From a virus, in the IMG/VR virus record IMGVR_UViG_3300010885_018109, positions 1 to 22,505 of that record: DNA of 22,505 bases, one strand, 5' to 3'. The notes beneath the pieces are model-generated. The model had not been told where the DNA came from and did no database searches. It saw only the letters and a list, made by a program, of their open reading frames with translations. Shown here one piece after another: positions 2,124 to 20,267 of the stretch. Every line of letters begins with the position of its first letter. The first letter of the stretch is position 1. The position numbers and the translations under genes were made by a program.

Positions 2124-2130
2124 TATTTAG
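2124..2130 (-). promoter_or_regulatory. T4-late-like promoter for holin unit
   Basis: The minus strand reads CTAAATA, close to the T4 late box TATAAATA, ending 33 bases before the holin-like start. The TAA stop of the upstream 60-residue gene is contained in the box. The same box recurs ahead of four other leftward units. Confidence 0.55.
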
Positions 2131-2309
2131 GTCTTCGGCAGTTTCCGCTTTAGAATTTTTGATTTCTTTCGTGGTGAAACAGGAGGAAGGTCGGGAGGCA
2201 GACCCGCGATATTTCCACCACCAGCAATATTTGAAGGACCAACTGCCATAGGAGGAGGAAACTCTTCCCCTATGAAACTAGTAAACGATTTAATTTTACG
2301 ATGAGCCAT
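2127..2309 (-). CDS. Small tagged phage protein (60 residues)
   Basis: This short protein begins MAHRKIKSFTSFIGEEF and continues with a Gly/Pro-rich middle (about 18-45) and a strongly basic end. F9-x3-I13-x-E15 has the geometry of the T4 capsid-targeting sequence and gp21 cleavage site. The NIAGGGNIAGLPPD stretch resembles small proteins I associate with T4-like marine phages. The start at 2309 is chosen for its strong ribosome site (GGAGGAGGAA); the frame extends upstream to 2435 but that part lies inside the tail-fibre gene. It overlaps the end of that gene by 14 bases. Possibly an internal head or structural peptide; function unknown. Confidence 0.65.
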   Translation of the reverse strand: MAHRKIKSFTSFIGEEFPPPMAVGPSNIAGGGNIAGLPPDLPPVSPRKKSKILKRKLPKT

Positions 2310-3855
2310 AGGTTCCTCCTCCGAACACCATGAAGTGAATTTTTTCATACACTCCCGCTGTGGTACTACTATACGAAGTTTGAACAAACTGATTGTCGGA
2401 TGCTCTTTGCTTGTATGCGGAAACGGTAAATCCATCAGTGGTCTTAAGATTATTCGAAGAGCCTCTGTTCACTGCTAGTATGGACCACTCCCGTATGTCT
2501 CCGTAGTCGGGATTAGATTTAATTGGCTCGTACTCTCCATCCAAAATGACGCAGTAGTTTGTGTCTTTTGCGTGCTTCAAAAAATTCACGCGGACGCTGT
2601 ATGGAGAGTCAAGCATTGCGGACACACCAGCAACATTGAAAGCGTTTTCAAGATAGCAATCAATGTACTCTACATGATTGTTTTTCTTTGGAACGATAAC
2701 GATTGTTCCGTATGCAGTAGCCGTTCTCTTTGAGAACAGATTTGGCATATGGCTGTTGTATGTGTTTCCTGTGAGTCCGTAACCAGCAGAGCCAGGTGTG
2801 AGTGTCTTTCTTGCGTCTTGGTCGCCAAGAACGGGAACAGACGCACCTGTTGGAGTGAATCGTGTAGCCTGTGTGCCTTCTTCGAATTGCGGACCCCACA
2901 GCAAAAACTCTTTGGCGTTCATTTGAAGCAAAGGTTGTAATGTTGTTGGAACTGCGTTTCGCACAGTCACTGCACAGCGTTTCCACCCATTACCCATGTC
3001 CATTATGCTTCCAGAAGCAGTCTTTCCCAAGGCTCCACCAACAGTTCCAATTGGAACTACTGCACCTGTGTCGCAGTTAAATTCGCATCCAAAGTTGTTT
3101 CCGACTCCACCAATGAGCATTGATAGACTTGCCCCCTCAACAGGCAAAGCAAAAAGACTGAAGGTATAGTCTTTTAAACCAGATGCAACATTAATAATTG
3201 TTGCGTTAATGTAAGTTAAGTATCCAGCCCCTGCTGATGGATCGGCAGTGAATCCAATTACTCCTGAGAGTGTTCCTTGTGGAGACAATATGTCGGGATA
3301 CTCACTAGGTGTTGCTACACGGAAAGAGTACGCATTTCCACCCTGAATAGCCCACGAAGTCCAATCGTTTGTATTGGTAAACAGATTAGCCACTTGATGG
3401 CTGTAGATGTCACGGTCGTAGCCAAGGTTGAATGCAGCAAAGTTTACGCGCAGGCTGTTGTATGTGAAATCAGCAGGAGAAAATGTTCCACCACTAGGAC
3501 CAACAGGAGTTTGCTGTGCGTATGTTGTAAAGACAAACCCAAGAGTTCTTCCTGCGGCTGTTGATCCACCCACTCCACCCATCCACCTTTGCGATCCCAC
3601 GATTGCGGGTGTTCCCGTGATTTCAGGTGTGAACAGCATGATGTATCCACCAGATCCGTATTGGTTGGGGTTAGTGAATGTTACTCCGTATAGCCCTGGT
3701 GATGTCCTGCTTACATTCAGCACACCAGCACCGTCACCCAAGACTGTTGGTTGACCCGTGTTTGCAGTTCCTACAAGTATGTTTCCCCAACTGTCGCAAA
3801 CAGGAATGTTTACGGTAAGAGAATCGGAATTTGTTGCTGTGGTTGAGTTGAACAT
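2296..3855 (-). CDS. Tail-fibre-like structural protein with carbohydrate-binding-type domain
   Basis: This 519-residue protein is rich in Gly, Thr, Ser, Asn and aromatic residues, with few charged helices, as in phage fibres. The middle (about 150-340) has a recognisable fibre domain. It opens with a region naming an experiment-like NLFTNTNDWTSW motif. The core (240-300) ends in DMGNGWKRCAVTV, and a closing strand LLWGPQFEEGTQATRFTP follows. That pair (NGW.RC...WG.Q.E.G..AT...PT) is common in adhesin and fibre domains resembling carbohydrate-binding jelly rolls. It probably helps bind the host surface or forms part of a tail appendage. The start overlaps the previous gene as TAATG (3853-3857), so the two are likely translationally coupled. 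Confidence 0.72.
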   Translation of the reverse strand: MFNSTTATNSDSLTVNIPVCDSWGNILVGTANTGQPTVLGDGAGVLNVSRTSPGLYGVTFTNPNQYGSGGYIMLFTPEITGTPAIVGSQRWMGGVGGSTAAGRTLGFVFTTYAQQTPVGPSGGTFSPADFTYNSLRVNFAAFNLGYDRDIYSHQVANLFTNTNDWTSWAIQGGNAYSFRVATPSEYPDILSPQGTLSGVIGFTADPSAGAGYLTYINATIINVASGLKDYTFSLFALPVEGASLSMLIGGVGNNFGCEFNCDTGAVVPIGTVGGALGKTASGSIMDMGNGWKRCAVTVRNAVPTTLQPLLQMNAKEFLLWGPQFEEGTQATRFTPTGASVPVLGDQDARKTLTPGSAGYGLTGNTYNSHMPNLFSKRTATAYGTIVIVPKKNNHVEYIDCYLENAFNVAGVSAMLDSPYSVRVNFLKHAKDTNYCVILDGEYEPIKSNPDYGDIREWSILAVNRGSSNNLKTTDGFTVSAYKQRASDNQFVQTSYSSTTAGVYEKIHFMVFGGGTYGSS

Positions 3856-4328
3856 TAGATCACCAACACCCCAATGCTAAAGGTGGCGTTTCCCCATACG
3901 CGCCGATTCACTAGTTGATTGTTTGTTCTTCCTGTTTCTGGTGCAGCGGGGGTTGAGTCCGTGGCAAAGTAACCAGATCTAATCCAAAACGAGTCTCGTG
4001 TTTTGGGATACTCAGGCGAGTTCAGTGCGTGTGCAAGGCTCACAAGGGTATCGGGAAAATACGGTTGAACAAAAATCTTGTAGTTCGTGTCTGGCATGGG
4101 ATTAACAAAGGAAAACTTTATTGCGCCAGCAAGAGCAAGCACACCAGAGGTTGATGCCTGTGTCTGTGTTACAGCATCAATATACAGATTGTGTCCGTCT
4201 ATGAAATTTTTTTCAGAGAATCCGTACTGCGTGACGGAACTCGAATTGTGGTTTGAAACAAGACACCACGCCTTAACATAAGCGTTGTGCTTGAACAGTC
4301 CAGATCTGACAATTCCCGTATTTAGCAT
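3855..4328 (-). CDS. Small tail-fibre or fibre-tip-like structural protein
   Basis: This protein of 157 residues is beta-rich. It has a FSFVNPMPDTNYKIFVQPYF stretch (72-91) of the kind found at the C-terminal tips of phage fibres, where a pattern such as sF..pMp..nY.v recurs. No enzyme motif is visible. It is placed directly before the 519-residue fibre-like protein and shares a TAATG stop/start with genes on both sides (3853-3857 and 4326-4330). This is good evidence that the three are translated as a set. Host recognition or appendage assembly is inferred from context. Confidence 0.62.
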   Translation of the reverse strand: MLNTGIVRSGLFKHNAYVKAWCLVSNHNSSSVTQYGFSEKNFIDGHNLYIDAVTQTQASTSGVLALAGAIKFSFVNPMPDTNYKIFVQPYFPDTLVSLAHALNSPEYPKTRDSFWIRSGYFATDSTPAAPETGRTNNQLVNRRVWGNATFSIGVLVI

Positions 4329-4729: not shown

Positions 4730-6577
4730 TCACCAACGCATATTGTGTTTTTCAAGACGGCTCTTGATAGCCTTGTTTCTGCCAATCACATTTGCCGCAC
4801 CTTGGTGGGGGCTTGACTTCTTGACCTTCTTTCCCTTTGCAACGGCTTCTTCCACGGACTTCAATGCCTTCTTATGGAACCGCTTGCTCTTGCCGCTCTT
4901 GTCTGCCATTGCAGCAGTAGGATCAGGAGCAGTAAGGGGGATTCCGCCCAGCATTTCCGTGTACTCCTTCACAGCCTTCTTTGGAGTGTACGCCGAAATG
5001 AGTTTGGTGGACACCTTCTTGCCGTCCTTGATCTTGGTCGCAGCGATCATCTTCTTGGGCTTGCTGCGAACAGCGTCACGACTGCTGCTCAAGAGTCTGT
5101 CCAAACGAGGAGTCCACTGCTTCATCTTGGCTTCCTCTACAGTCTCTTCTTTGACCGCCTTCTTCTTGTTACGGAGCATGGCGAAGTCCTGTGAGTCAAG
5201 ACGCTTGTTCTTGTTGACATCAAGTCGCTTCTGACCGCCGATGAGGGCTTCTTCTACTGGCTTCTTTTTGGAGCGGAGCATCTTGAAGTCCTGTGCGTCA
5301 AGTCGCTTGTTCTTGTTGACATCAAGTCGCTTCTGACCGCCAACGAGTTCTTCCTTCACGGTATTTTTGGCACGACGAATTTCGTACTTCTTGTGGAGGG
5401 CTTCTAGTTCACGCTCTTTGTCAAAAGTTCCTGCTGCAACTCGCTTGGCTTTGTTGGCTTCAACCTTTTCACGCTGCTTGTAGTACGCATCACCCATTTG
5501 CTGTTTGCGCTCGGGATTGTTGACACCGCGAGAACCAACTCGCGCCCTGTCGTATGCGTATCCCATACGAGCCAGTTTGGCTGCGCCTGCTTCATCAATC
5601 TGCTCTGCGCCTTCCTTTACAACTTTGCCGCCCTTACCGTACATTTTCTTAGCGAAAAATTCATTACGATTTTTCGACAGGATACTGTTGTACTTTTTCT
5701 TTGCTGCGGGTTGATCGCCAACTTTGTTGCGTATCTTACTGGCAGTCGCATCTAATTTTCCTTGCATTTCCTTGACACGCGCAGGAGTCTGTGCCATCTC
5801 GTCAACGACTTCTTCCTTCACGGGCTTGCGCTTGCCCTTCACGATCTTGCCGCCGCGACCGTACAGTTTTTCGGACTCGTATTCCTTGGTATCACGCGCA
5901 ATCAGACGGCGCACAGCAGCATCGTGCTTGTCTTCCAGTTTGCGTCCACGCTCCGCAGCCTTGCCCGTCTTGTTCATCTTGGCTTCGTAGCCGCGTTGAG
6001 CCTTGGCATCGTGCCGCTGAATCGCGTGTTCCATGTCTCGCTGACGAGCAGGAGTCTGTGCCATCTCGTCAAGGCTGTCGCCGTCATGCTCCACGCCTTC
6101 TTCAGCCACAACAGGCTCGGTCTTGGGAGCGAGTTTGGCGGTGACGCGGTACAAGCCGTCTTCGGCAGTCTCAACAGTCACCGACAGGTTGAACTCTTGC
6201 AAGCCAGCGTTGGGGTTAGCCCGTCCGTCAAAACGGATGCTGCCTGAAGTGCCGTCTACACCGTCAACGCGACCAAACAGGGTCACGGGGAGGGCGAACG
6301 CTCCAGTCGCGTTGTTTTGCCACATCCACGGAGTCCACTGAAAGTCAAGCATGAACAGGTTCAGGCGAGTGCGAATCTTGATGAGGGCTTCGCTGGTGTG
6401 CTGATAGGTGTAGCGGTTCATTGCCGTGAGAACAGCGTTAACCTTGGGCAGCAAGTCCTTGTTCACAGGACCGACATCAGTGTCAATGCCGCGATTGGGA
6501 TAGCCCGTGAGGGTTTCCTTGTACTCGCTCTCGTTCAGTTCGCTACGGAATGCCTTGAATCTCTTGTGTTCGCTCAT
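4730..6577 (-). CDS. Repeat-rich tagged virion-type protein with EF-hand-like loops
   Basis: The 615-residue protein starts MSEHKRFKAFRSELNES, where F10-x3-L14-x-E16 matches the head-targeting/cleavage geometry. Residues 40-155 form a Trp-containing beta-rich domain. After that the protein becomes highly charged and modular: DEMAQTPAR occurs at 170-178 and again 89 residues later, each followed by Lys/Glu-rich helices and a YGxGGKxVK ending. Two 34-residue repeats hold GGQKRLDVNKNKRLD-type loops, D419-D430 and D453-D464. Asp/Asn at positions 1, 3, 5, 9 and 12 resemble EF-hand or dockerin calcium sites. ATG 6577 follows AAAAGG. Likely structural or an internal head protein; no enzyme motif seen. 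It follows the 407-residue protein, which shares the TPAR module. Confidence 0.75.
   Translation of the reverse strand: MSEHKRFKAFRSELNESEYKETLTGYPNRGIDTDVGPVNKDLLPKVNAVLTAMNRYTYQHTSEALIKIRTRLNLFMLDFQWTPWMWQNNATGAFALPVTLFGRVDGVDGTSGSIRFDGRANPNAGLQEFNLSVTVETAEDGLYRVTAKLAPKTEPVVAEEGVEHDGDSLDEMAQTPARQRDMEHAIQRHDAKAQRGYEAKMNKTGKAAERGRKLEDKHDAAVRRLIARDTKEYESEKLYGRGGKIVKGKRKPVKEEVVDEMAQTPARVKEMQGKLDATASKIRNKVGDQPAAKKKYNSILSKNRNEFFAKKMYGKGGKVVKEGAEQIDEAGAAKLARMGYAYDRARVGSRGVNNPERKQQMGDAYYKQREKVEANKAKRVAAGTFDKERELEALHKKYEIRRAKNTVKEELVGGQKRLDVNKNKRLDAQDFKMLRSKKKPVEEALIGGQKRLDVNKNKRLDSQDFAMLRNKKKAVKEETVEEAKMKQWTPRLDRLLSSSRDAVRSKPKKMIAATKIKDGKKVSTKLISAYTPKKAVKEYTEMLGGIPLTAPDPTAAMADKSGKSKRFHKKALKSVEEAVAKGKKVKKSSPHQGAANVIGRNKAIKSRLEKHNMRW
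5202..5341 (-). repeat. Tandem coding repeat, period 102 bases
   Basis: A 38-base block is identical at 5202-5239 and 5304-5341, with diverged sequence between. The 102-base period encodes the two 34-residue EF-hand-like units of the 615-residue protein. Near-identity at DNA level suggests recent duplication or gene conversion. Confidence 0.85.
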
Positions 6578-6589: not shown

Positions 6590-7813
6590 TTACTCTGAAG
6601 TTGTGTCTGAGCGGTAGTCCGCATCGGACGCTCGCTTGGTTCCTGTTCCGCTCTTCTTGCGGCGATCAGCCGCCCAATACATCTTGCCGCTCTTGGTGTC
6701 CTGTCGCGCCATCGGATTGGTGGAACCCTTTGGTGGAGGAACAGGTTTGCTCATTTCAGCGGAGTGCTTGGCATAGTCAGCCTTGGCTTTCTTTAGTTTG
6801 GATTGGGCAGGAGAGCCTTCCCATCCTTCTCTCATGCTGTGTTCAGCCTTGCGCCACTTGTTCAGTTCACGCTTGTTTACCTGATACGGACTGCCTTCTT
6901 TGTCCGACTTGCGTCCGTACTTGTGTACGAGTTCAAGGTAGTTGATGCGCGAGCCACGGGCGTATCCTCTGTCGCGTTCTTTGGCGGTCTTGCCCTTGTT
7001 CAGAGCCTTTGAAGCCTTTTCCTTTTCGCGGTCAATCACAGCCTGACGAGCGGGAGTGATCTCCTCGTCCAACTCGTCCATGAAGTTGAAGAATGTCTTG
7101 CCTTCGCTGACACTCTTCCATCCGCCGCCCTGCTCGTTGTACCACTTCACTGCCCAACCATTGGCATAGGCAGACGGGTACACATCAAACTTGGCGCGAG
7201 CCTTGGCTTTGGCGCGTGACCAAAGTTCAGGCTTCGTGGGCTTGTTCTTCTCCATGAGGGCTTGTGCATCCTCACACAACCAGAACATATCCATGCCTTC
7301 TTGCGTGGGAACTTCGAAAGACTCTTCCACCTCTTCTTTGCCTAGTGTTGTCTTGAAAGCGTTGAACAACACAGGAGAGCCAGTGATCTTCTTCACCATT
7401 GAATCAAGCATGGTGATCATCATGTCACGATACACTTTGGACGAACCCATGCTCTTGGCTTTTGCTGGTGATTCAAGGGCGCGGCGTGCTGCAAGCACAT
7501 CCTTTTTCTTTACCAAGCCGCTGCGGAGCAGGGTCTTTTCCCGCTCCTTTTCCACGCCTTCGATCACGGTGGCGGGTTCTTTTGAAACCGATGCACGCAT
7601 GGTGGCGTACAGGCTCTTGTTGTTGACAACGCGATCTACAACATCCATCAGAATCTCCTGCATGAGCATTCGATACGCAGGGTTCTTCATTGCCTTCTCG
7701 GGATCGGCAAACAGGGTCATGGCGCGGCGAACATTGTTCTTCGACACCAACCCCATGCGGAGCAGAGTGTTTAGTTTAGATGCGATGGCAGGGGTTTTGC
7801 CCATTGGTTCCAT
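6590..7813 (-). CDS. Phage protein with internal duplication and PSAYANGW domain
   Basis: This 407-residue protein contains two copies of a helical unit, about residues 15-79 and 93-160. Both open with TLLRxGLV plus a Lys-rich turn and close with a Lys-Glu pair. Next is ELWSRAKAKARAKFDVYPSAYANGWAVKWY (rough span 196-225), seen by me in many marine phage and some giant-virus proteins without known function. A TPAR motif at 253-256 starts a charged helical module like those in the 615-residue neighbour. The C-terminus is Ser/Lys/Pro-rich. ATG 7813 has CAGGAG upstream, and a CTAAATA box lies 22 bases ahead. Probably a virion or assembly protein; no catalytic residues identified. Confidence 0.72.
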   Translation of the reverse strand: MEPMGKTPAIASKLNTLLRMGLVSKNNVRRAMTLFADPEKAMKNPAYRMLMQEILMDVVDRVVNNKSLYATMRASVSKEPATVIEGVEKEREKTLLRSGLVKKKDVLAARRALESPAKAKSMGSSKVYRDMMITMLDSMVKKITGSPVLFNAFKTTLGKEEVEESFEVPTQEGMDMFWLCEDAQALMEKNKPTKPELWSRAKAKARAKFDVYPSAYANGWAVKWYNEQGGGWKSVSEGKTFFNFMDELDEEITPARQAVIDREKEKASKALNKGKTAKERDRGYARGSRINYLELVHKYGRKSDKEGSPYQVNKRELNKWRKAEHSMREGWEGSPAQSKLKKAKADYAKHSAEMSKPVPPPKGSTNPMARQDTKSGKMYWAADRRKKSGTGTKRASDADYRSDTTSE

Positions 7814-7833: not shown

Positions 7834-8916
7834 TTATTTAGATTTCTTCAGATGGCTCGTCATACGGGGAGAGTTGCCTTTTCCGCTGCGATCCGTTTCG
7901 GGTTCCACCCGTCTTTTTTGAATCACGGCGCGTTTCCGCTCCTTGGGAGTCATCTCACCCACCGTTTCGGGGGTTTCGCTGCTCACTTTGTGCAGGGGGC
8001 GGCACTTCGGATACTTGCCCTTGGAGGTGTCAGAGCGACCACACGGGGGATACTGACCCGTCTTGGGGTCTTTCCTCCCACCAATGTTCACCCATTTCTC
8101 CTTGAACCACCGAGACAGGTCTTCATCAATTGCACAAGGTGGAGTTTTAAATTTAGTGCTGTGCTTGGAGAAGCCGCCAGTCTGACCAGGCGTGGGAGGT
8201 CGCCGCTTGTACTTGTCGCTTTCAATTAATCGCGCAGCAGCAGCAGAGTATATTTCATTGTAGTCAATGCCTTCTTTCAGAGCCTTGCCCACTTTTGCTC
8301 GCTTGGGCTTTGCTGCTGCCATGCCTGCTTGGAGATCCGTAAACAGTGCCTTGATATCCTTTTGGTTTGCGCGGCGTGGCATACCACTCTTAAAGGTAGC
8401 CATGTCGTTTTCCGCAACAGCAAGACGCAGTTTCGACGCACTCATTCCCTGTACACCACTCGCACTATCATCACGCTTACCCGCGCTTATCATGTTGACC
8501 GATTTTAGTTTGAGAGGAGTCTTAGCCTTCGGACTCATCAGGTCTTTTATCAAGGCTCCGTATTTGCCTTCTCTGTCTTGACCGCCAACAAGCAACACAT
8601 GATCATAGCCTCTGTCTGCAAGCCAATACAACATATCCGCAGGGTTTTTAATGTTTGCATCGTCTATGAAGTTGCCGTCAGGGAAGAACTTCTTCAGATA
8701 GTGAAACTTCTGACGAGGGGTCAGAGGATTTTTTTGCGGGTCATTAGTGCGACTGCTGAACATGGCGTGTTCTGCGCCGTGCTTCTTAGCAGCCTGCACC
8801 ACTGTATCAACGAGCAGTTGGTGTCCAGAAGTAGGTGGCTGAAAGCGACCGAATGCAACCACGATGGTTTTGCTTGGTCGCGCAGACTGAGATTTACCTC
8901 TAACCTGTTTTGCCAC
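7834..8916 (-). CDS. Cytidylyltransferase-type nucleotidyltransferase fused to Cys-rich domain
   Basis: Residues 17-200 of this 360-residue protein match the HxGH nucleotidyltransferase superfamily. FGRFQPPTSGH (22-32) holds the first motif in TSGH form. LLVGGQDR (108-115) is the central strand. MSASKLR (158-164) is the ISSTxxR-like nucleotide-binding motif. Such enzymes transfer a nucleotide, as in NMN adenylyl- or cytidylyltransferases, and are frequent in T4-like phages; the substrate here is unknown. The C-terminal part (about 260-330) has a separate WFKEKWV...CGRS...YPKCRP domain with conserved cysteines. I choose GTG 8916 because GGAGGTGAT precedes it with normal spacing; GTG 8925 overlaps that site. 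Its TAA stop lies within the next CTAAATA box. Confidence 0.82.
   Translation of the reverse strand: MAKQVRGKSQSARPSKTIVVAFGRFQPPTSGHQLLVDTVVQAAKKHGAEHAMFSSRTNDPQKNPLTPRQKFHYLKKFFPDGNFIDDANIKNPADMLYWLADRGYDHVLLVGGQDREGKYGALIKDLMSPKAKTPLKLKSVNMISAGKRDDSASGVQGMSASKLRLAVAENDMATFKSGMPRRANQKDIKALFTDLQAGMAAAKPKRAKVGKALKEGIDYNEIYSAAAARLIESDKYKRRPPTPGQTGGFSKHSTKFKTPPCAIDEDLSRWFKEKWVNIGGRKDPKTGQYPPCGRSDTSKGKYPKCRPLHKVSSETPETVGEMTPKERKRAVIQKRRVEPETDRSGKGNSPRMTSHLKKSK
7835..7841 (-). promoter_or_regulatory. T4-late-like promoter for structural unit
   Basis: CTAAATA on the minus strand lies 21 bases before the start of the 407-residue gene, leaving room for a short leader with CAGGAG. The stop codon of the nucleotidyltransferase gene is part of the box. 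Confidence 0.55.
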
Positions 8917-8958
8917 GGGGATCACCTCCGATATTGCACTTCAGACACCAACTGCTCG

Positions 8959-10167
8959 TTACTCTTTTTTCCAAGTCTTCTCAACGGTAAAGTTGCTCCG
9001 CGAGAAGTCAAGGCGATCTACTAGTTTGACGGCTTTGTTGCTCATGCGGTCAATTGCCACATAGCCTTCGGGAGCGGTAACGCGATATCCCTTGCCGTCT
9101 TTGACGAATGTTCCTACCCCGCTCTTCAGCGAGGACAGTTTATTGACGATGCTGAGTTTCAGCGTAGCCAACGCATTATGTAGGGCGAAAACCCGATTGA
9201 TCTGGTTGCGATTCGCTTTGATCCAGTCCATAGACGGAGTGGGTTTCGTGCTTGGCTTCTTGCGAATGATCTGCGCTTTCTGTGACATCATAGCCAACAA
9301 CTGGTTTACATCGGCGTGACCGCTGCCCATGTTGCCACGCACAAGACCGTTGATGTAGGTCTTGATAGCAATCTTCACCCCTTCGTTCCGCGATATGCCG
9401 TTCATGGTGGTCTTCAGTGCAGAAGCAGTCTGTGTAAGCGTGGCAATGGAACGCTCAATTCCTTCTCGTTCGATAGGGGAGAACAGTGCGCTGCCGTTTG
9501 CAACACGCAGAGTGGCGTTGTCATACCACACATCGCGTGTCTTCTTCAGGTACGAGATGTCGGGATTGAACCGCGCAACCATCGTGGACATGGAGTTACC
9601 TTCGTAGGCGGTGTGGAACACGATGCCGATCTTTGCGGCTACAACACGCTTGCCCAACTCGCTCTTGGGGTCTACGGCGTAGGTAATCGTGTTTGCGCGG
9701 AATGTCAAATAGGTGCTGCCGTCAATCTCTTCACGCACCACCGTGTCTTTGTCGAATAGGAGATCACCTTGCAGCACTCCACGAATTCCCAATTTAGAGA
9801 AATGCTTTAGTGCGAGTTTGAGTTTCTCGTTCAAGCCTTCGGCGGGGTGGTTTGCGTCAATGTCGGCAGGGGTGAAATTCAGTTTGGGTGTCACATTGAA
9901 CACGCTCTTTGTGCCGACAAAAAAACGACCGCTTGCAGGGTCGATGCCGCACACGATTGCGGGTGCGCCGTCCCATTTCACTGTGATGTCGTATGCGCTT
10001 GGCTCGTTTGCGGCAAACACATCAAGCACACCACGGATAGCGGATACTGCACGGGTAAACCCTGTGTAGCCGTCATTCAGAATTTCGTCTTCAAGGTGTT
10101 CCAAGTGGACATTTTTGCCACTCTTTGCCTTGAACGCTTCCGTGAGATGTTCGGTGAATCGAATCAA
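8959..10167 (-). CDS. Tagged KxDG ligase-like phage protein
   Basis: This 402-residue protein starts MIRFTEHLTEAF (F4, L8, E10), a head-targeting-like tag. Then ITVKWDGAPAI places K64 in a KxDG motif, the nucleotidyl-lysine motif I of DNA/RNA ligases and capping enzymes. GDLLFD (134-139) and KIGIVFH (179-185) resemble motifs III and IV. From memory it belongs with a T4-like phage family annotated DUF6267, which has the same K.DG and GDLLF pattern. Whether it is an active ligase is unproven. The start is TTG 10167: GGAGG is seven bases upstream and no ATG fits the tag. A CTAAATA box lies 20 bases ahead, and the nucleotidyltransferase gene follows after 42 bases. Confidence 0.75.
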   Translation of the reverse strand: MIRFTEHLTEAFKAKSGKNVHLEHLEDEILNDGYTGFTRAVSAIRGVLDVFAANEPSAYDITVKWDGAPAIVCGIDPASGRFFVGTKSVFNVTPKLNFTPADIDANHPAEGLNEKLKLALKHFSKLGIRGVLQGDLLFDKDTVVREEIDGSTYLTFRANTITYAVDPKSELGKRVVAAKIGIVFHTAYEGNSMSTMVARFNPDISYLKKTRDVWYDNATLRVANGSALFSPIEREGIERSIATLTQTASALKTTMNGISRNEGVKIAIKTYINGLVRGNMGSGHADVNQLLAMMSQKAQIIRKKPSTKPTPSMDWIKANRNQINRVFALHNALATLKLSIVNKLSSLKSGVGTFVKDGKGYRVTAPEGYVAIDRMSNKAVKLVDRLDFSRSNFTVEKTWKKE

Positions 10168-10187: not shown

Positions 10188-10194
10188 TATTTAG
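10188..10194 (-). promoter_or_regulatory. T4-late-like promoter for nucleotidyltransferase unit
   Basis: Minus-strand CTAAATA lies 20 bases before the TTG start at 10167. It includes the TAA stop of the exonuclease gene. The leader contains GGAGG. Confidence 0.55.
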
Positions 10195-10859
10195 GAAAAT
10201 TGGAGGGGCTGCTCTTCCCGATAGGTGCGTATTGCATCCACCAAATCTTCAATGTAGTCTCGGGGATCGGCGGTGAAAACCTGTGATCCTCCGTCTTCCA
10301 CGCCTATCAGAATGGCAATATTTCGCAATTTCTGACCCGTCCGATCCTGCCACATGAGCGCATACGCGGTAGCCTGCATGAAGTAGTCTTGAATCGCGTC
10401 CTCGGATTTTGGATAATTGGATGACTTGAAGTCGATGACCGATGGAACTCCGTCAAATTCCCCAATGCAGTCCGTGCGACCCGCCAGACCCACCTTTTTC
10501 GACCACAGTGGCACTTCAATAGCGTAGATCGTCCCGATACGATTGATGTCCTCACGCATCGACACAAAGAGATCGGCTTCACTTGTTCCCGCTGCTTCAG
10601 AGAGCGCAGTTGGCGTAAGATCGTTGCGGAGATAGGTTTCAATGATCGAATGTAATTTGGTTCCACGGGATAGTACTCGCTTGGATTCTTCGGGATTGTC
10701 ACGCCGCCACTTGGCAAAGAAAGCACGCTTCTTCCATCCTGTCACGGTGGTAACAGACGGAAAAATACCGTCAGGAGTACTGTATCTCCTGCCGCTGCCG
10801 CTTTCTACGCTTTCTACATTTTCGTTTAGCGTCACAAATTCATGATGAAAGGTTTTCAT
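10191..10859 (-). CDS. MGME1-like PD-(D/E)XK exonuclease
   Basis: The 222-residue protein shows the RecB/MGME1-type exonuclease order. RGTKLHSIIE gives H70 and E74, and IEVPLWS gives E115. AGRTDCIG holds D130, VIDFKSS holds D143 and K145, and a QATAYALMW helix (162-170) closes the set. D130, D143 and K145 form the metal-binding core of PD-(D/E)XK nucleases. Related enzymes degrade single-stranded DNA ends, and homologues are common in T4-like cyanophages. A role in recombination or host-DNA breakdown is inferred. Its N-terminus MKTFHHEF is only loosely like the tag of other proteins here and lacks L/I at residue 8. The start at 10859 overlaps the preceding stop as TAATG. Confidence 0.82.
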   Translation of the reverse strand: MKTFHHEFVTLNENVESVESGSGRRYSTPDGIFPSVTTVTGWKKRAFFAKWRRDNPEESKRVLSRGTKLHSIIETYLRNDLTPTALSEAAGTSEADLFVSMREDINRIGTIYAIEVPLWSKKVGLAGRTDCIGEFDGVPSVIDFKSSNYPKSEDAIQDYFMQATAYALMWQDRTGQKLRNIAILIGVEDGGSQVFTADPRDYIEDLVDAIRTYREEQPLQFS

Positions 10860-11038
10860 TACTCTTCGGGCTTCTCCTCAACCACTTCCATGCCTTCGGG
10901 TAGTTTGCTTTCACCTGTTGGCTTGGGCTGATTCACTGGCGACTGATTGCGGTTTTGCCACCGATTCGCGGCTTGCCACTCAGGGTTGTTCTGTTGGTTT
11001 TGCTTTAGCCAAGCAAGATAGTTTCTCATGTTTGTCAT
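10859..11038 (-). CDS. Small Gln/Asn/Pro-rich protein (59 residues)
   Basis: A short reading frame fills the space between the 280-residue gene and the exonuclease. It begins MTNMRNYLAWLKQNQQ, has two Trp-containing polar segments (NPEWQAANRWQNRNQ) and ends in a Pro/Glu-rich tail. ATG 11038 follows AGAGGAGAT at good spacing, and the TAA stop overlaps the exonuclease ATG as TAATG. Both features argue for a real gene despite its size. It may serve partly to couple exonuclease translation. I recognise no family. Confidence 0.65.
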   Translation of the reverse strand: MTNMRNYLAWLKQNQQNNPEWQAANRWQNRNQSPVNQPKPTGESKLPEGMEVVEEKPEE

Positions 11039-11049
11039 AGGGATCTCCT

Positions 11050-11892
11050 CTAGTATGTAGTGTCATCATCGGAGGGTTCCGATTTTCCATTTAGTATTTC
11101 ACGACAGTCGTTCAAGAACTTCTCAGATGATTCTGTATAAACCGATGCTTGTTTTGAAAACTCGGTGAACACAGCAGCCGTGAAAGGATGTGTGGTTCCG
11201 TATTTTACAAGTGCTGGCAGAACGATGCCCACAACGGCTTCTTGAATGTACGAGTATTTTGTATCGAATCGAAAAGATTCTTGTTGTTGCTTGGTGATAA
11301 TTTCTTTGGTGACTTCAGTGAACGCACCGCGATCCCTTTGTGGAATGGTGTAGAGATGGGCTTTTGCCGACTCTGCGAGTGTGCGGAGACAACCCGCAGC
11401 ACAGGTTCGCATGGAGTAGTCACATTCTTCTTTCAGCGACAGAAACTCGAATGGTGTGCTGTTCTCTCGCAACCGCTTTACCACATCATAATAGCCAAAC
11501 AACTTGATCTCATCATCTTCCACACGCACAAAGTCACAGTTCTGCATGGCGTAGGAAAGACTGCACACACGCTCAAGAAGTTTTCTTGACGCGAACGCTT
11601 CTGCGTACACTGTTTGGTCACCCTGTGTCCAACAGCGAAACAGATCACCCGCCTTCGGACGAAAGCGAACAGCGGTGTCCTTTGACTTCATCAACAGCAC
11701 CGTGGGTTCGTGTTTTTCCAAAAGAGAAGACACCACTGCTGCTACAAGGTCAGGAGTGGAACCATTGCCCACGCTGCATTGCATAGACAGAGGAGTGGTT
11801 TTGTTGGACAGATTGTAGGTCAGCAAACAAATACCTTCACCGCAGTTCACGCGGACCGATCCACCACTATCGGTCTGTTCATAATTAATCAT
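11050..11892 (-). CDS. Unrecognised phage protein (280 residues)
   Basis: This protein is of mixed alpha/beta composition with several scattered Cys residues (in about 17-40 and 150-170) and a polar C-terminal tail ending DDDTTY. I recognise no motif, signal or membrane segment. The start at 11892 is three bases after the stop of the previous gene, with only a weak A/G-rich ribosome site, so re-initiation is likely. It ends 11 bases before the 59-residue gene. Position between a core-like protein and an exonuclease suggests co-expression with late or DNA-processing genes, nothing more specific. Confidence 0.65.
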   Translation of the reverse strand: MINYEQTDSGGSVRVNCGEGICLLTYNLSNKTTPLSMQCSVGNGSTPDLVAAVVSSLLEKHEPTVLLMKSKDTAVRFRPKAGDLFRCWTQGDQTVYAEAFASRKLLERVCSLSYAMQNCDFVRVEDDEIKLFGYYDVVKRLRENSTPFEFLSLKEECDYSMRTCAAGCLRTLAESAKAHLYTIPQRDRGAFTEVTKEIITKQQQESFRFDTKYSYIQEAVVGIVLPALVKYGTTHPFTAAVFTEFSKQASVYTESSEKFLNDCREILNGKSEPSDDDTTY

Positions 11893-11895
11893 GTG

Positions 11896-12435
11896 TTACT
11901 TTTTCTTTCTTGGTCGCAGTCCGAATGTGAGTCTTTTCCTCAAGGACAGTTTACGCTTGCGCCCCGCTTGCGCTCGTTTTCCTCTAGCCTTTCGTGAACT
12001 ACGCTTGGCTGTAAGTTTCATCTTGCGTAGTTGTGATGCTCCACGCCGAACACAGGTTCGTGGTCCTTTCTTTTTGAGACCAGGAGCGCACTTGAAGATG
12101 ATGCGCTTCTTGCCCTTGCGTACCACGATCTTACGCCTGGCAGCGACCTCGTTCAACATCTGACTCTCTACTTCAAACTCTTCTTCTATTTCTTCGTCCT
12201 CTTCCACTTCAACCGTGATGTCTGCTTCCTCCACGGGGTCAACAATGTAGACAACGCCGTCTTCTTCTTCCCACTCAATGCCTTCCTGCTCCAAATAGTC
12301 CACCACATCTTCATGTGAGAAATTGGGCATATCAAGCACGATCTTCTGCTCGGTGAGTTCGGCATCGAACTCTTCGAACACCATGCGTTGCAGGGATGCG
12401 AATGCGTGATCGCGTAGGTCTTTGAATGGTTTCAT
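11896..12435 (-). CDS. Acidic/basic prohead-core-like protein
   Basis: The 179-residue protein is split by charge. Residues 1-50 are helical, 52-90 are extremely Glu/Asp-rich, and 99-179 are strongly Lys/Arg-rich with a conserved KGKKRIIFKCAPG segment and two Cys (116, 128). The basic domain matches one I know from T4-like cyanophage proteins, some annotated as prohead core proteins. L94-N95-E96 lies at the boundary and fits the L-x-E cleavage rule of the T4 prohead protease. Packaging-associated or DNA-binding function is inferred from charge. The start overlaps the upstream stop as ATGA, and an AGGA lies upstream. Confidence 0.65.
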   Translation of the reverse strand: MKPFKDLRDHAFASLQRMVFEEFDAELTEQKIVLDMPNFSHEDVVDYLEQEGIEWEEEDGVVYIVDPVEEADITVEVEEDEEIEEEFEVESQMLNEVAARRKIVVRKGKKRIIFKCAPGLKKKGPRTCVRRGASQLRKMKLTAKRSSRKARGKRAQAGRKRKLSLRKRLTFGLRPRKKK

Positions 12436-13345: not shown

Positions 13346-15691
13346 TCACTTTTTCCAAGCAGCCTTGCCCTCGGCAGCACGCTTGTTGATTGCCGCGTCC
13401 TTTGCAGCCATTACTTTCTTCCTGCGCTCTGCATCAGCCTTTGCGAGTTCCGCGTCAGAGAGTTTGCGGATTTCGCTGATGTAGATTCTACCCACATCAG
13501 TAAAGTCTGCGCTCTCCCAAATCATGTCGTTGCCTGCATCAAGCACGGCTTTGCGAGTCTTCTTGTTCAGAACCTGCAAGCCAGTTCCTGCGGCGTACAA
13601 TTCTACTTCGATGGTTCCCACCATGTACACCACATCACCCATCTTCATAACCTTCTTCACCTTCACGGTGGCTTCCTTGCCACCCTTCTTGCCGTAAATT
13701 TCAAATGTAGTTCCCACTGGCTTGATCTCTGCGGTGTCGATCAGGTCTTGAGCGGTTGCAATGTTGCTCTGCACAGTTGCCTGTGTCTTTGCCCAACCAG
13801 CGGAAGCCTTTTCCTTCTGCTTCTGTGTCCTCAGCATATTTCCTGCCGCATCGGTCTTGCGAGGCTTTGACTTCAATGCACCAGCGTAGTACTGCGGATC
13901 ATCGGTGTCAACCTGCATTCCCGAACGGAATGTACCAAGAGCAGGAGTCTTATCAAACTTTTTCTTTGCTGCTTCTTCCAACTCTACACGAGACTGTGCA
14001 GACTCATGGAGTGACTGAACGATACGACCAAAACGACCGCTTCCGAACTTGCTCATAGTCCATTCCTTCTGTTGTTGTGGCTTTGTCTGTGGCTTATTTT
14101 CTTTGATGCCAAGTCCCTTGGCAATCTGTTCCGATGTCTTCAATTCCGCATCGGAGAAGTTCTTGCGAGTGGGCTTGCTGTTGCGGTCTTGATTCGTGAT
14201 TCCCATTGCGTGTTGGAATGCGTTGGAGAAAGCAACCATCTCGTCAATGTCAACATCCTTGCCGCCCTTCTTGATGTTGCGTGTCTTCATTCTCATGTCT
14301 GCGCCTCTGCCGTTTGCCATGTCTGCACCAATCATAGCAGCCCAACGGTGGTGACCGTCAATAACATAGCCACCCGATGTAAAGATGGGAGCCTTGAGGC
14401 GGACTGCTTCTGACCCATATGTTTTTGGATCAACTTCAGCAGCCGCAATTGTGCTGTACATTCCTGCAATCTTTGATCCCTGCATCTCTGTTTGAATGGG
14501 TCGGAGAGTAGAAGGATTAACTTCCACATCATCCACTTCATAGCCAGAGTTCTTCAGTGCTTCTATAAATTTCTCTTCAAAGTTCACTTCAACCGAACCA
14601 ATTTCTTCAGGAGAGGGGTTTGCAGCCTCCACCTCTTCATCGGTTATATCTTTCTTCTGTTCTTTCGTGGGGTCATCCGTCTTGAACTTGTCTTTTGCAG
14701 CACGAAGACGCTTGGCTTGCTTCAATGCTTCTTTGTATGCAACAGAATCGGTTCTTTCTGTGTCAACGATTCCCGACAACTGCGGCATCTCTGGACGCTT
14801 GATGCCCTTGTCTTTTTGCTTGCCTTCATTGTCGTAACAGAAACCCAGTGCAGCAAACATCTTGGAACACGGTTCGTGGTCAATGATATCTCCACCCATT
14901 CCTGATTGCAGAGCAGCGTGGTTTAGTTCTGCAACATAGGCTCGTTCTGCTTCTGCATTGCCAGTGAGCGATTCGGAATCGTCCTTTGGACCAGTCATGT
15001 TTCCGCTCTTGATCGCGGACGCAATCAGTTTAGACTTTCTTATGCTCTTGGCTTTGTCTTCTTCGGTCTTGAACTTTGCCTTCTTGCCTGTCTTCTTGAA
15101 ACCAGCGTTGTCCTTGCCTGTATCACCCTGCCCCTGAGAGTCAAACGAAGACTGAGGATCTTCTCCTGCTACAGACTTTACTTCTGGGTCTTCCGCTGGC
15201 TGCTGTTGCGCTTGTACAGGCTTTTGTTCTGCACCTTTTTGACTACCTTGCGGTTGTGCTTGACGCTGCGTATTAGCGGCTGTCGCTTGCGCTTTGGGGG
15301 CGGCTCCTCCTGCGGGTTGAGGAGCGGGTCGGGTTGCTGCGGCTGCTGTGGGCTTTGCATTCGCGGGTGATCCTCCTGCGGTTTTCTTTACTTCATAACC
15401 GTCACGATCCAATTCAACAGGAACAGATGTGTCGCCTGGCTGATCTGAACGACCAGCAGGCTTGAACTGTCCGCTGATCCACGCCTTTGCACTGTCTTCG
15501 TCTTCGAAGTAGTCAACGGCTCCGTCCTTGTTCTTTGCGCCAATCTTGCCGCTTGCGGTCTTCCAAGTGTCTCCTGCCTTGTGTCCCGTCTGTGCAGAGG
15601 GCTTCTTCTCCGCAGGCTTTGTAGGCTTGGCGGTGGCTTGCACCTCAAAGATCGTGGTGCGTAGACTCTTGTAAGGTTCAAGGTTTTCCAT
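13346..15691 (-). CDS. Large ParB/sulfiredoxin-like domain protein
   Basis: This 781-residue protein has an N-terminal WKTASGKIGAKNKDG unit (43-57). An Ala/Pro/Gln low-complexity linker follows (about 105-170), then a conserved ELNHAALQ...IDHEPCSKMFAALGFC stretch (about 255-290). A ParB-like domain comes next: a strand with NPSTLRPIQ and KIAGMY, then VIDGHHRWAA at 443-452. The GHHR motif is the phosphate/nucleotide-binding loop shared by ParB, Srx and related CTPase or nuclease domains. The C-terminal 200 residues are Lys/Glu-rich with a small beta unit. Activity is unknown; DNA-binding, nicking or ATP-dependent roles are possible. ATG 15691 follows CGGAG and lies just after the previous stop. 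Confidence 0.75.
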   Translation of the reverse strand: MENLEPYKSLRTTIFEVQATAKPTKPAEKKPSAQTGHKAGDTWKTASGKIGAKNKDGAVDYFEDEDSAKAWISGQFKPAGRSDQPGDTSVPVELDRDGYEVKKTAGGSPANAKPTAAAATRPAPQPAGGAAPKAQATAANTQRQAQPQGSQKGAEQKPVQAQQQPAEDPEVKSVAGEDPQSSFDSQGQGDTGKDNAGFKKTGKKAKFKTEEDKAKSIRKSKLIASAIKSGNMTGPKDDSESLTGNAEAERAYVAELNHAALQSGMGGDIIDHEPCSKMFAALGFCYDNEGKQKDKGIKRPEMPQLSGIVDTERTDSVAYKEALKQAKRLRAAKDKFKTDDPTKEQKKDITDEEVEAANPSPEEIGSVEVNFEEKFIEALKNSGYEVDDVEVNPSTLRPIQTEMQGSKIAGMYSTIAAAEVDPKTYGSEAVRLKAPIFTSGGYVIDGHHRWAAMIGADMANGRGADMRMKTRNIKKGGKDVDIDEMVAFSNAFQHAMGITNQDRNSKPTRKNFSDAELKTSEQIAKGLGIKENKPQTKPQQQKEWTMSKFGSGRFGRIVQSLHESAQSRVELEEAAKKKFDKTPALGTFRSGMQVDTDDPQYYAGALKSKPRKTDAAGNMLRTQKQKEKASAGWAKTQATVQSNIATAQDLIDTAEIKPVGTTFEIYGKKGGKEATVKVKKVMKMGDVVYMVGTIEVELYAAGTGLQVLNKKTRKAVLDAGNDMIWESADFTDVGRIYISEIRKLSDAELAKADAERRKKVMAAKDAAINKRAAEGKAAWKK

Positions 15692-16997: not shown

Positions 16998-17726
16998 TTA
17001 ACGCTTTCGCCACTTGTTGTTGTCTTTCGACCTGTTGGTGTGGCGTGAAACCAAACGGAGATTAGACGGACGGCTATCCAAGGCATTGCCGTTCTTGTGG
17101 TCAATCTCTTTGCCGTCATTCGAGCGACCTTCCCGACCCATGCGCCGCAGCACACGCTTCCGAGCGGTTTTCTTCTTCATGGCTTTGCGCTGCTTGGGCG
17201 TGGGGTTGTCGCCGCCGTACATCTTGGCGTATTCAGCCTTGTAGTCACGCGCTTCCACCAGTTTGGCTGTGGTCACGGTGCGTTGGTCTTTGCGGGGATA
17301 ACCGCGAGGCAGTACTTCTGTGCCAGTAATCTTGTAGCCGTACTCCTTGCCGAATCTCCGCATCATGGCACTGTAGACTGCATCGCGCTTGCCTTCGCTC
17401 GTCTTGGACACCATGTCAAACCGCTTCGGCAATTCCTCAAATGTTTCGGTGTGCCACTTCAGGAATTGCTTTACGGCTTCCACCACCGTAGCCAGTATGC
17501 GGTACGGCTTGCCTGCGTGGGTGAGTTCAAGCGAGTCATCCAACATGAAATTGATTTCCCACCCGTTGCCGATCTTGGTGATATCAACTATCAGGTTCTT
17601 TCCACCGTCAACAACGGCATGATACCGTATTTCAATGGTGGTCATGCCAGACCCAATGCGCCGTGTTTCACTCACGGGAAACGGACGCTCGAAAAGTTCG
17701 GTGAGATATGAGCGAAATGTGTTCAC
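16998..17726 (-). CDS. Tagged phage protein with C-terminal HNH nuclease domain
   Basis: The 242-residue protein opens MNTFRSYLTELF (F4, L8, E10), identical in eight of twelve residues to its upstream neighbour's start. Residues 55-130 carry a conserved phage domain with AGKPYRILATVVEAVKQFL and a YSAMMRRFGKEYGY end, related to the same region of that neighbour. A Lys/Arg-rich linker (about 178-200) leads to GKEIDHKNGNALDSRPSNLRLVSRH, with H210, N222 and H229 fitting an HNH fold that cuts DNA using a metal ion. GTG 17726 is supported by GGGAGGTAA, and a GTGA overlap links it to the previous gene. A packaged nuclease is one reading; intron-type homing activity is another. Confidence 0.78.
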   Translation of the reverse strand: MNTFRSYLTELFERPFPVSETRRIGSGMTTIEIRYHAVVDGGKNLIVDITKIGNGWEINFMLDDSLELTHAGKPYRILATVVEAVKQFLKWHTETFEELPKRFDMVSKTSEGKRDAVYSAMMRRFGKEYGYKITGTEVLPRGYPRKDQRTVTTAKLVEARDYKAEYAKMYGGDNPTPKQRKAMKKKTARKRVLRRMGREGRSNDGKEIDHKNGNALDSRPSNLRLVSRHTNRSKDNNKWRKR

Positions 17727-18466
17727 GCTTTACCTCCCTGATACAACTCACCAAACTTGTGCTGTTTGTCCAACCAAATAATGGTGGGTGCTGCCATGCC
17801 CCCACGCGCAAAGTCCAACTCATGCACCGTTCCTCCCACTGCTCCTGCTGCTTTACGCGCAAGTGCTTTGTAGATGCGACCACGCGCAGGGTTGGCACTG
17901 GTCTTCGTTCCAATAATGATTCCGCGAACGGGATTGTTGTTCTTGACGAATTCACGCGAAGCGTTCACCACCGTGCCAAGTACAGAAGCCGCGCCGCCTG
18001 TACTCAACCAGTTCAGGTCTTCGTCTGTGCCTTCATCGTATCCCCAATAAAACGCACTGATGTCTTTGGGCTTCATGCCAACAGGACGCGGACGGGGCGG
18101 CATACGCTCAAGCGATGCGGAGCGGCGAGAAAACGACAACTCGTAGATGCCGTCAGGCTCCAAGCCGTAGAACAGCAAAAATTCAGGGTATTCGTTTCGG
18201 ATGTGTACAAGAGGAGTAAACTCCACCGAATACACATACACACCTGCCTTTATTCCATAGAAATCCTGCTTGTGGTCTTCGTGACTCTGTGGCGTGACTC
18301 CCAATTCCTTTTCCACCCACCGCGTGAGTTCTTCTCCACGCTCAGGAACAGGTGTCAAACGACCGCCCTTCTCCTGTACATAAAAAATGAATTGGTTGTA
18401 ACCCATGCTGTGCAGGGGAAACTTTGTGTCAAACAGTTCGGTGAGGTAGGAGCGGAAGTCTATCAT
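17723..18466 (-). CDS. Tagged phage protein, paralogue of the HNH fusion's N-terminal domain
   Basis: The 247-residue protein begins MIDFRSYLTELF, the same tag as the following HNH protein. Its middle is beta-rich (SVEFTPLV about 76-83). Its C-terminal half has GGAASVLGTVVNASREFVK, then IIIGTKTS and RIYKALARK, in the same order as GKPYRILATVV...DMVSKTS...VYSAMMRRF of the neighbour. I know this pattern from many marine phage proteins; an acetyltransferase-like fold has crossed my mind but no catalytic site is clear. The start at 18466 overlaps the preceding stop as ATGA and has a weak ribosome site, so coupling is likely. Confidence 0.7.
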   Translation of the reverse strand: MIDFRSYLTELFDTKFPLHSMGYNQFIFYVQEKGGRLTPVPERGEELTRWVEKELGVTPQSHEDHKQDFYGIKAGVYVYSVEFTPLVHIRNEYPEFLLFYGLEPDGIYELSFSRRSASLERMPPRPRPVGMKPKDISAFYWGYDEGTDEDLNWLSTGGAASVLGTVVNASREFVKNNNPVRGIIIGTKTSANPARGRIYKALARKAAGAVGGTVHELDFARGGMAAPTIIWLDKQHKFGELYQGGKA

Positions 18467-19533
18467 ACGGCTTTACGCTTCACCTTTCCGTGCAGTTGAC
18501 GAGAGAACTTCGCGGAGCGGTAGTCCACCTCTTTGTCTGAAGTTTCGCTGTAGCCGCCCTTGATGAACGGATCAGCGTATGTCATCTGGTTTCCGCCCGT
18601 GCGAACGGACAGAATCAGATTCGTGACTTCAACCGTATCGCCCAAGCGAATGGGCGGCAGGGATTCCTTTGTCTTCGTGCTGCCAATGTAGCCCATGAGC
18701 ATCCAGCCTTCGTCCGTCTGAATGCGAACGCGCCACCGCCACACGCTCATCTTGGTATCATACGCTTTCTGACCAGGAGAGGCTTCTCCTGGTCGGTATC
18801 CATCACGACCACCGATGGAAGCGCGTATTCTGCGATAACTCTTCGTCTTCACTGGCACATCGTACACAGGATACAACTGCACGATCTTGCCGCTGATGCT
18901 GAACGAACGCTTGAAATACTCGGGCTTGGGCTGCGGTGTGTCACCGTGTTCCACGCCTTCGCGCAGTTCTCCCTCCACATCCATGTCAACCACTGTGTAG
19001 CCTGGAAACATACGCGCCAGATTGTTTGCCACGCGATTCTTGCCGCGCTGAAGCGCACGATCACGCAGCAGGTTCTCGCCTGTTGCCGCAGAGATGAGCG
19101 ATACGGTCTTGCGGAAGCGGTCAACGCGACCCTGATAGTCCGTCATGCCACTAGAGTTGCGTGTTCGCTTTGCAGCAGCAAGGTATTCAGGAATGTCACC
19201 GTGAATCACATTCTGTGCGGTTTCGCCTTGCGGAATCTCGTACACCACGATCTTGCCGTGATCCCACCACCACAGCAGCGGCAAGTACTGGCGCAGAGTC
19301 TTCACATCGGTTGTGGGTGGCAGTCCCCACTTCTCAAGCCAACGAGCATTGGGGTTGTCATGTCCTGTGTCGGTGTACGATGCGTACTGTTTGCCGTCAT
19401 AGGTGGTTTCGCCACGCAACCGCTCAAGCGTCTTTGCAGCGGTTTTTTTGTAGCCGCGTGGCTTGCGTGCGCCCTTGACCGCTTTGGTTGCAGAGATCAC
19501 GGCTTCGCGTAGATGCTGAGTGAAAGACTTCAT
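18463..19533 (-). CDS. Tagged phage protein of unknown function (356 residues)
   Basis: This protein starts MKSFTQHLREAV (F4, L8, E10), then has a basic helical stretch (to about 45). A Trp-rich part (LPLLWWWDHGKIVVYEI, about 86-102) is followed by a long charged region, and the C-terminal half is beta-rich and basic (about 210-330). ELREGVEHGD (about 189-198) includes another L-x-E site and recalls EEGVEHDGD in the 615-residue protein. I recognise no enzyme motif. ATG 19533 overlaps the previous stop as ATGA, with AAGGA upstream. The tag and operon position suggest a protein packaged in the head, by inference only. Confidence 0.68.
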   Translation of the reverse strand: MKSFTQHLREAVISATKAVKGARKPRGYKKTAAKTLERLRGETTYDGKQYASYTDTGHDNPNARWLEKWGLPPTTDVKTLRQYLPLLWWWDHGKIVVYEIPQGETAQNVIHGDIPEYLAAAKRTRNSSGMTDYQGRVDRFRKTVSLISAATGENLLRDRALQRGKNRVANNLARMFPGYTVVDMDVEGELREGVEHGDTPQPKPEYFKRSFSISGKIVQLYPVYDVPVKTKSYRRIRASIGGRDGYRPGEASPGQKAYDTKMSVWRWRVRIQTDEGWMLMGYIGSTKTKESLPPIRLGDTVEVTNLILSVRTGGNQMTYADPFIKGGYSETSDKEVDYRSAKFSRQLHGKVKRKAV

Positions 19534-20267
19534 GCGCGGTTCCAGTCCTTGGCGCGGACACTCTTGTACCGCCTGCTGTTGCGATCCGCTGTCAGCATCT
19601 CCAGCACCACATCGGTGTCTTCGCCCATTACTCCACCAATTTCGCGCAGTGCGGCTTTGGCTGACGAATGCTCTGTGCCTTCAAGCGATGGGCGGTCTTT
19701 GCCGTACACCTTGAGCCAGCCCTTCTTGTACGCAACCAGTTGCACTTCGTGGGCAAGATCAATGTCGGTCTTCAGAATGCTGGCGCGCACGCTTTCGGGG
19801 TTGTGATCCTTGCGCTCACCGTCAGCATCGTACCACTTTACATTCTGCACATACAGATAGATGGCTTCCCGCTCCAGTGCTGCGTCCAGTTCTGCTTTTG
19901 AAATACCGAACTTCTGCGGCGACTTTACAATCTGGGTGACATGGAAGCCGTCTGCGTTGTGGTTGAAGGTGAACCACTGCTTCGTGGGATGCCACCAGCC
20001 TGGCTGTCCGTCTGTCCACCCTGACCGCTTGATGCCCTGCCACGGGAACGGTTGCCGCTTGGCTGCTGTGGTGCGGTGCTTGGCGCGGGACTTGGCGAGT
20101 TGCTGTGCGGCTATCCGTGTCATGAGCGCACCGTACTTGCGCTGCTGACGGCGGTCGAATGCCTGATCCGCTGCCGTTGGCGTGTACCGCTCGGTGGGCG
20201 GAATGTACGCATTGGGGTTGTCCTCAATGGCAAGACGCTCGGAGATGTACTGGCGGAATCTCTTCAT
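19530..20267 (-). CDS. Tagged phage protein, first gene of four-gene cassette
   Basis: The 245-residue protein starts MKRFRQYISERL (F4, I8, E10). After a basic region (about 35-70) it has GWWHPTKQWFTFNHNADGFH (about 86-105), then paired elements ending KKGWLKVYGKDRPSLEG (about 198-214). This layout of a GWxxP...H unit followed by a KGWxxV unit recurs in marine phage proteins of unknown function. I take ATG 20267 because it yields the tag; a TTG at 20285 would run through the CTAAATA box. The ATG is only six bases from that box and has no Shine-Dalgarno, so the message may be nearly leaderless or come from read-through. Confidence 0.68.
   Translation of the reverse strand: MKRFRQYISERLAIEDNPNAYIPPTERYTPTAADQAFDRRQQRKYGALMTRIAAQQLAKSRAKHRTTAAKRQPFPWQGIKRSGWTDGQPGWWHPTKQWFTFNHNADGFHVTQIVKSPQKFGISKAELDAALEREAIYLYVQNVKWYDADGERKDHNPESVRASILKTDIDLAHEVQLVAYKKGWLKVYGKDRPSLEGTEHSSAKAALREIGGVMGEDTDVVLEMLTADRNSRRYKSVRAKDWNRA

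Follow-up and report, generated by a model that had tools for sequence, protein, structure and literature searches.

The virus record IMGVR_UViG_3300010885_018109 from IMG/VR, a fragment of a larger genome analysed here over its entire 22,505 bases (the window), encodes seven proteins that open with a similarly spaced set of residues. The question raised by this locus is what such a common N-terminus (the tag) does on otherwise unlike proteins. The original prediction regarded it as a packaging signal of the kind carried by the internal proteins (IPs) of T4, placed on proteins that are injected with the DNA. In this work we find that the tag geometry is shared in the window and its relatives beyond chance, and that the tag is very probably a capsid-targeting sequence of the T4 type. 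The comparison of relatives also suggests that some tagged proteins are chains of modules separated by sites resembling the processing half of the tag.

The shared N-terminus in the window and its relatives

All seven predicted N-termini were found at the expected places, and all are encoded on the minus strand. Five of them match M-x2-F-x3-[LI]-x-E exactly: MIRFTEHLTE on a 402-amino-acid (aa) protein with a TTG start (8959-10167, tag 10138-10167), MNTFRSYLTE on a 242-aa protein with a GTG start (16998-17726, tag 17697-17726), MIDFRSYLTE on the 247-aa module D protein (17723-18466, tag 18437-18466), MKSFTQHLRE on a 356-aa protein composed of modules A and B (18463-19533, tag 19504-19533) and MKRFRQYISE on the 245-aa module E protein (19530-20267, tag 20238-20267), whose ATG lies within an open reading frame opening at TTG 20285. 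The remaining two keep equal spacing displaced inward by five and six residues, respectively: KIKSFTSFIGE (core SFTSFIGE) in a 60-aa protein (2127-2309), with a predicted cut after residue 15, and FKAFRSELNE (core AFRSELNE) in a 615-aa protein (4730-6577), with a predicted cut after residue 16.

The comparison with background that had been proposed along with the original prediction revealed enrichment both over shuffled sequences and over other start positions. When starts were chosen mechanically, strict matches numbered 3 in the window versus 0.02 in residue shuffles, and 3, 3 and 7 in the main relatives G001 (150 kb), G002 (96 kb) and G003 (113 kb) versus 0.10-0.16. Related contigs gave 7,664 unique N-termini, of which 48 have F-x3-[LI]-x-E beginning at residue 4; each other start position from 2 to 31 accounts for 1-10. 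With Phe fixed at position 4, the gaps of 3 and 1 account for these 48, and most other gap pairs for 0-9; two exceptional pairs gave 16 and 18, for which the same N-termini are probably responsible. Because homologues are included, the counts speak for a strong positional signal and should not be taken as 48 separate origins. The tagged bodies fall into nine groups unlinked in sequence, which bears out the claim that the tag stands on different proteins.

No near-identical match to the window was found among 50,697 cultured phage records. The 402-aa protein belongs to the DUF6267 family and has 59 relatives among viral contigs (identity 97% to 33%) and distant ones in 464 phage records. Since the latter are mostly T4-like cyanophages and the nearest phages include Methylophilales phage Melnitz-3 and Pelagibacter phage HTVC008M, the window derives from a T4-like phage of an uncultured clade in the broad Kyanoviridae neighbourhood.

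Where relatives exist, homologues of the seven proteins keep the tag. The starts of DUF6267 homologues vary (MIRFTEHLTEA, MRAFTEHLVEA, MNRFKQHLLEG, MKPFRQHLTEA, MIRFNEYLSEA and, in Melnitz-3, MINFSKYITED), with F4, L/I8 and E10 constant. In 16 distinct DUF6267 tags the entropy is zero at positions 4 and 10, 0.3 at position 8 (L/I) and 0.5 at position 7 (H/Y), compared with 1.3-1.8 at positions 2, 3, 5, 6 and 9. The fixed positions of these tags are encoded by varying synonymous codons; the constraint therefore acts on the protein, and the same variation speaks against an RNA-level signal as the cause of the tag. A set of 56 tags selected for F4, [LIM]8 and E10 has Tyr or His as residue 7 in 51 cases. 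For the displaced tags, F-x2-F-[IVM]-x-E is held in most relatives of the 60-aa protein, the adjacent residues varying, and F-R-x2-L-x-E in many relatives of the 615-aa protein.

The set of tagged genes changes from one phage to another. Contig L189 carries five almost consecutive tagged genes with partly different bodies, G003 seven, and the more distant 177-kb contig L192 three. In the cultured Vibrio phage D479 (L194, 4001-6209) four consecutive short genes begin with the tag or close variants of it (MEFRTFLTE, MNDFKQFMVE, MKTLQTYMVE and MGFMDFYSE); the first of them is related to module C, found in the 242-aa protein, and the row adjoins a gene annotated as RNA ligase. This variability, the aromatic or His residue 7 and the internal [LIVM]-x-E junctions described below go beyond the original prediction.

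Correspondence with the T4 capsid-targeting sequence

The T4 sequence to which the tag had been likened, MKTYQEFIAE, is indeed borne by two proteins of the T4 genome. Amber-suppressor mutants of T4 IPIII have assigned targeting to residues 4 and 7 and processing to residues 8 and 10 (PMC9026906). These four functional positions are the ones held in the clade studied here: an aromatic residue at 4, Tyr or His at 7, Leu or Ile at 8 and Glu at 10; His at 7 departs from T4. Two further occurrences were seen in cultured phages. The 54-aa product of T4 gene 61.1 (NC_000866, 18966-19130), a protein outside the set of named internal proteins, starts with a perfect tag (MKTFKEFIKED), and a 215-aa protein of KVP40 (39187-39834) starts with MKQFCNFLAEV.

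The original prediction had pointed to a search for a gp21-type prohead protease elsewhere in the genome. Such a protease (family S77) is present in the contigs of G001, G002 and G003 and likewise in Melnitz-3, HTVC008M, four cyanophages and KVP40; the 22.5-kb window itself lacks one, as may be expected of a fragment. In SPO1 no gp21 match was found, and the sole tag match there carries no weight. The gp23 proteins of three relatives have MLVE, MLTE and MLVE near residue 54, at the place of FLTE in T4 gp23, and the protein adjoining gp21 resembles T4 gp67 by eye.

The presence of tagged proteins in particles comes from two cyanophages. The exact tag is carried by the cytidylyltransferases S-SM1 gp190 (MKKFSAFLNE) and S-CREM2 gp154 (MKNFSSFLTE), both of which have been detected by mass spectrometry in purified virions (PMC3037559 and PMC10665884, respectively), which links the tag to the particle; the parts of these two reports available to us contain no remark by their authors on the tag. 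In the AlphaFold model of the DUF6267 protein residues 1-22 are of very low confidence (pLDDT about 25 in the tag region), as would be expected for a detachable leader. The reading as a common packaging signal is thus supported by the four-position match to the T4 signal, by gp21 and the gp23 L-x-E site in relatives and by the tagged virion proteins of cyanophages.

According to the mechanism that we propose, Phe4 and residue 7 (Tyr, His or Phe) would mediate docking to the prohead core, a gp21-type prohead protease would cut after Glu10 of [LI]-x-E, and the body would stay inside the head, packed with the DNA, and probably be delivered into the cell. The tag would in this way serve unrelated cargo modules in a cassette whose content changes. 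For this phage we infer the docking, cleavage, packaging and injection as well as the functions of the cargo; injection of the tagged proteins would follow by analogy with T4.

Modular tagged proteins and internal junctions

When tagged proteins were compared across relatives, their units were seen to recombine: a given unit may follow a full tag by itself or form part of a longer tagged protein. In the 356-aa protein module A is followed, across ELRE at residues 189-192 (18958-18969, minus strand), by module B of about 165 residues (start GVEHGDTPQPKPEYF). In G002 and L002 each of the two modules has a tagged gene of its own, B standing alone behind the full tags MKSFTDHLCE and MRGFSGYITE, respectively. 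Besides its fusion after A at ELRE in the window and at ELSE in L031, module B follows other sequences at TVKE in L012 and L018/L019 and an HNH unit at GMSE in L020/L022. The 242-aa protein has module C up to about residue 155, the junction LVE at residues 156-158 (17253-17261, minus strand) and then an HNH module (HNH_3, E 1e-8). Across relatives module C passes into the HNH unit through LVE, LAE, LKE or VPE, or into a HAD-like unit (FDFDDTL) through LAE or IPE with the HNH unit following at VHE. These junctions keep a hydrophobic residue at -3 and Glu at -1; neither the middle residue nor the counterparts of targeting positions 4 and 7 are conserved.

Proteins with only 60-75% identity in module C (G002 10745-12019 and its homologues in L004, L011 and L019) agree at 90-97% in the HNH unit, so that this unit seems to have moved recently or undergone gene conversion. 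Modules A and B have no relative among the 50,697 phage records, even at the protein level. The AlphaFold model of the A-B fusion (mean pLDDT 46 from 11 sequences) places the linker among the lowest regions and is too poor to judge it.

These arrangements would be accounted for if one front tag brings in a whole chain of modules and the gp21-type protease releases the units at the [LIVM]-x-E junctions. We are somewhat inclined to think that the junctions are cut by the head-maturation protease, splitting a chain of effector modules behind one tag into separate injected proteins. With a similarly slight preference, we suppose that the junctions retain only the processing half of the tag and thus allow units to shift between stand-alone and fused forms.

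Three other explanations have to be weighed. The tag might be merely the ancestral start of paralogous genes that arose by duplication in a tandem cassette, with no role in packaging. The genes do lie in tandem with 4-base overlaps, FRSYLTELFD is common to families C and D, and there are weak alignments between some bodies; however, nine unlinked body groups and the cyanophage cytidylyltransferases carry the tag, only positions 4, 7, 8 and 10 are held while their neighbours vary, and T4 and other phages have equal geometry on yet other bodies, which makes this origin very unlikely. We give about as little credence, or slightly less, to a docking peptide for some other assembly or host target (baseplate, membrane or chaperone) in which the Glu marks no cleavage site. 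A helix is predicted at residues 4-11, and we would expect such a helix to be able to bind many partners, but L-x-E recurs by itself, without the aromatic residues, at module junctions and in gp23, as expected of a protease site, and tagged homologues have been found in virions. Several points do weigh against a T4-type targeting sequence. The likeness of tagged families C and D extends just past the tag, and part of their similarity is therefore due to common descent. DUF6267 homologues without the tag occur in the L045-L054 clade and in S-WAM1, S-PRM1 and P-SSM3, and HTVC008M has gp21 yet no credible tagged protein; the tag is therefore not required of the family. Finally, no gp21 gene was found within the window, a fragment of the genome.

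The last alternative is compatible with a real tag and competes only with the cleavage of module strings: the [LIVM]-x-E junctions might be ordinary flexible linkers, the fused modules remaining joined in one multidomain protein as in polyvalent proteins. The linkers are rich in Glu, Lys and Ala, [LIVM]-x-E may arise by chance in short linkers rich in Glu and Lys, and one fused HAD junction (L016) has no such site. On the other side, module B is preceded by varied contexts, each closing with an [LIVM]-x-E whose middle residue differs. Module boundaries also coincide with [LIVM]-x-E about twice as often as expected in non-tail proteins across all families (72 of 180 versus 36) and show no enrichment in tail proteins (0 of 73 versus 4), in a test that is coarse and whose cases are not fully independent. 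We regard uncut linkers as a possible but less probable explanation, and prefer cleavage at the junctions.

Other proteins of the window and comparison with known systems

The cargo can be read as a set of nucleic acid-acting proteins carried into the cell, each function being a prediction. The match of the 402-aa protein to DUF6267 (PF19782, E 7e-100, 335 bits versus a cut-off of 27) covers residues 19-397 and begins past the tag; its KWDG motif (residues 63-66) is nearly invariant in the family. Aligned by structure with VIA-align, the AlphaFold model (pLDDT 73) has RNA and DNA ligases in nearly all top positions, none above Z 6.4, the value reached by T4 RNA ligase 2 across 160 residues. 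Provided that the alignment begins without a gap, residue 63 would coincide with K170 of the Naegleria ligase. Because these Z values lie below 8 and Foldseek alone is not significant, a nucleic-acid-ligase-like enzyme is only a lead.

Five proteins of the minus strand follow, two of which (the 615-aa and 179-aa proteins) resemble head components. The 615-aa protein is basic, contains repeated modules (MAQTPAR and the dockerin/EF-hand-like GGQKRLDVNKNKRLD) and numerous V/L/I-x-E sites in its interior, shares an ELDE-MAQT module with the gp67-like core gene adjoining gp21 in G001, and has no relative at the protein level among the 50,697 phage records. Two dockerin/EF-hand-like calcium-loop repeats (GGQKRLDVNKNKRLDAQDF) were noted in this head-like protein. 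A 179-aa core-like protein (11896-12435) has an acidic front half, MLNE at residues 93-96 and a strongly basic rear half; it matches phrog_3503 (head scaffolding) weakly (E 6e-5), and its homologues in another clade (L034/L036/L039) bear a perfect tag. A 781-aa protein (13346-15691) has the near-tag LRTTIFE ending at residue 16, where most relatives have I/V-x-E; its DGHHRW segment resembles ParB-like nucleases by eye. Two untagged proteins are a 407-aa basic modular protein (6590-7813) with VSE and LDE at module ends and a 363-aa cytidylyltransferase-like protein (7834-8925), whose cyanophage homologues are tagged and, in two cases, found in virions. A PD-(D/E)XK exonuclease (10191-10859, MKTFHHEFVTLNE) was rejected as a tag variant, as its relative in L006 reads LND and lacks the Glu.

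Three further genes were recorded. At 34-459 (plus strand) lies a fragment that looks by eye like a trypsin-like serine protease (GDSGGAIYDNSG), unusual for a phage and with relatives in G001 and others. The product of 783-1361 (plus strand; MVIAGIDYSL...) resembles by eye a RuvC-like Holliday junction resolvase, with no Pfam match at E 0.01. Near the tagged cassette, 21713-22132 (minus strand) encodes a 139-aa protein with HEYAH, a zinc metallopeptidase pattern, and homologous starts in L187, L189 and L190.

If our interpretation is right, proteins carried into the cell by T4-like phages, including uncultured aquatic ones, could be read from sequence alone, and most genes identified in this way have no label otherwise. 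The recurrent cytidylyltransferases in cyanophage virions would be explained, and DNA phages would have a way of loading several effectors with one tag. T4 Ip1-3 are counter-defence proteins (PMC12373910). Since it is the effectors arriving first that face restriction and other early defences, such proteins may be sought in the changing cassette.

Among the closest known systems are T4 IPI-IPIII, whose leader MKTYQEFIAE is cut by gp21. Both these and the tagged proteins of the window clade have an aromatic residue at 4, Leu or Ile at 8 and Glu10, unlike bodies behind one leader and variable gene content; residue 7 is aromatic in both, being Tyr or His in the window clade and Phe in T4 and cyanophages. 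Unlike the T4 proteins, the cargo described here is longer and often multi-modular, includes an HNH nuclease and predicted nucleic-acid enzymes, has processing-type sites between modules and occurs outside the T-even group. The virion cytidylyltransferases (NMNAT-like) of S-SM1 and S-CREM2 carry the exact tag, and S-SM1 shares the neighbourhood of DUF6267 next to cytidylyltransferase; in the window, by contrast, the cytidylyltransferase homologue is untagged and its DUF6267 neighbour is tagged. During head maturation the propeptide head proteins of the giant phages phiKZ and SPN3US are likewise cleaved behind a Glu by diverged proteases resembling gp21, and the partial accounts available describe no tag of the present geometry in them. 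Polyvalent proteins (Iyer et al. 2017, PMC5512222) also have several effector domains per chain, with proposed packing into the head and proteolytic release, and the tagged fusions share their trait of at least two unrelated domains per polypeptide. Release has been attributed there to an embedded metallopeptidase (PMC5512222), whereas in this clade it is predicted to occur in trans by the head-maturation protease. No peptidase was found among the Pfam matches of the scanned chains, in which most domains have no match at all, and the embedded metallopeptidase is not universal among polyvalent proteins. In the open-access literature, to which our search was confined, subscription papers lying outside it, we found neither such tags in cyanophages nor cargo strings cut by a prohead protease described. 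The tag is of an already known kind, found on new bodies and in a new clade, and tagged strings of modules cleaved in trans would be a new form of it.

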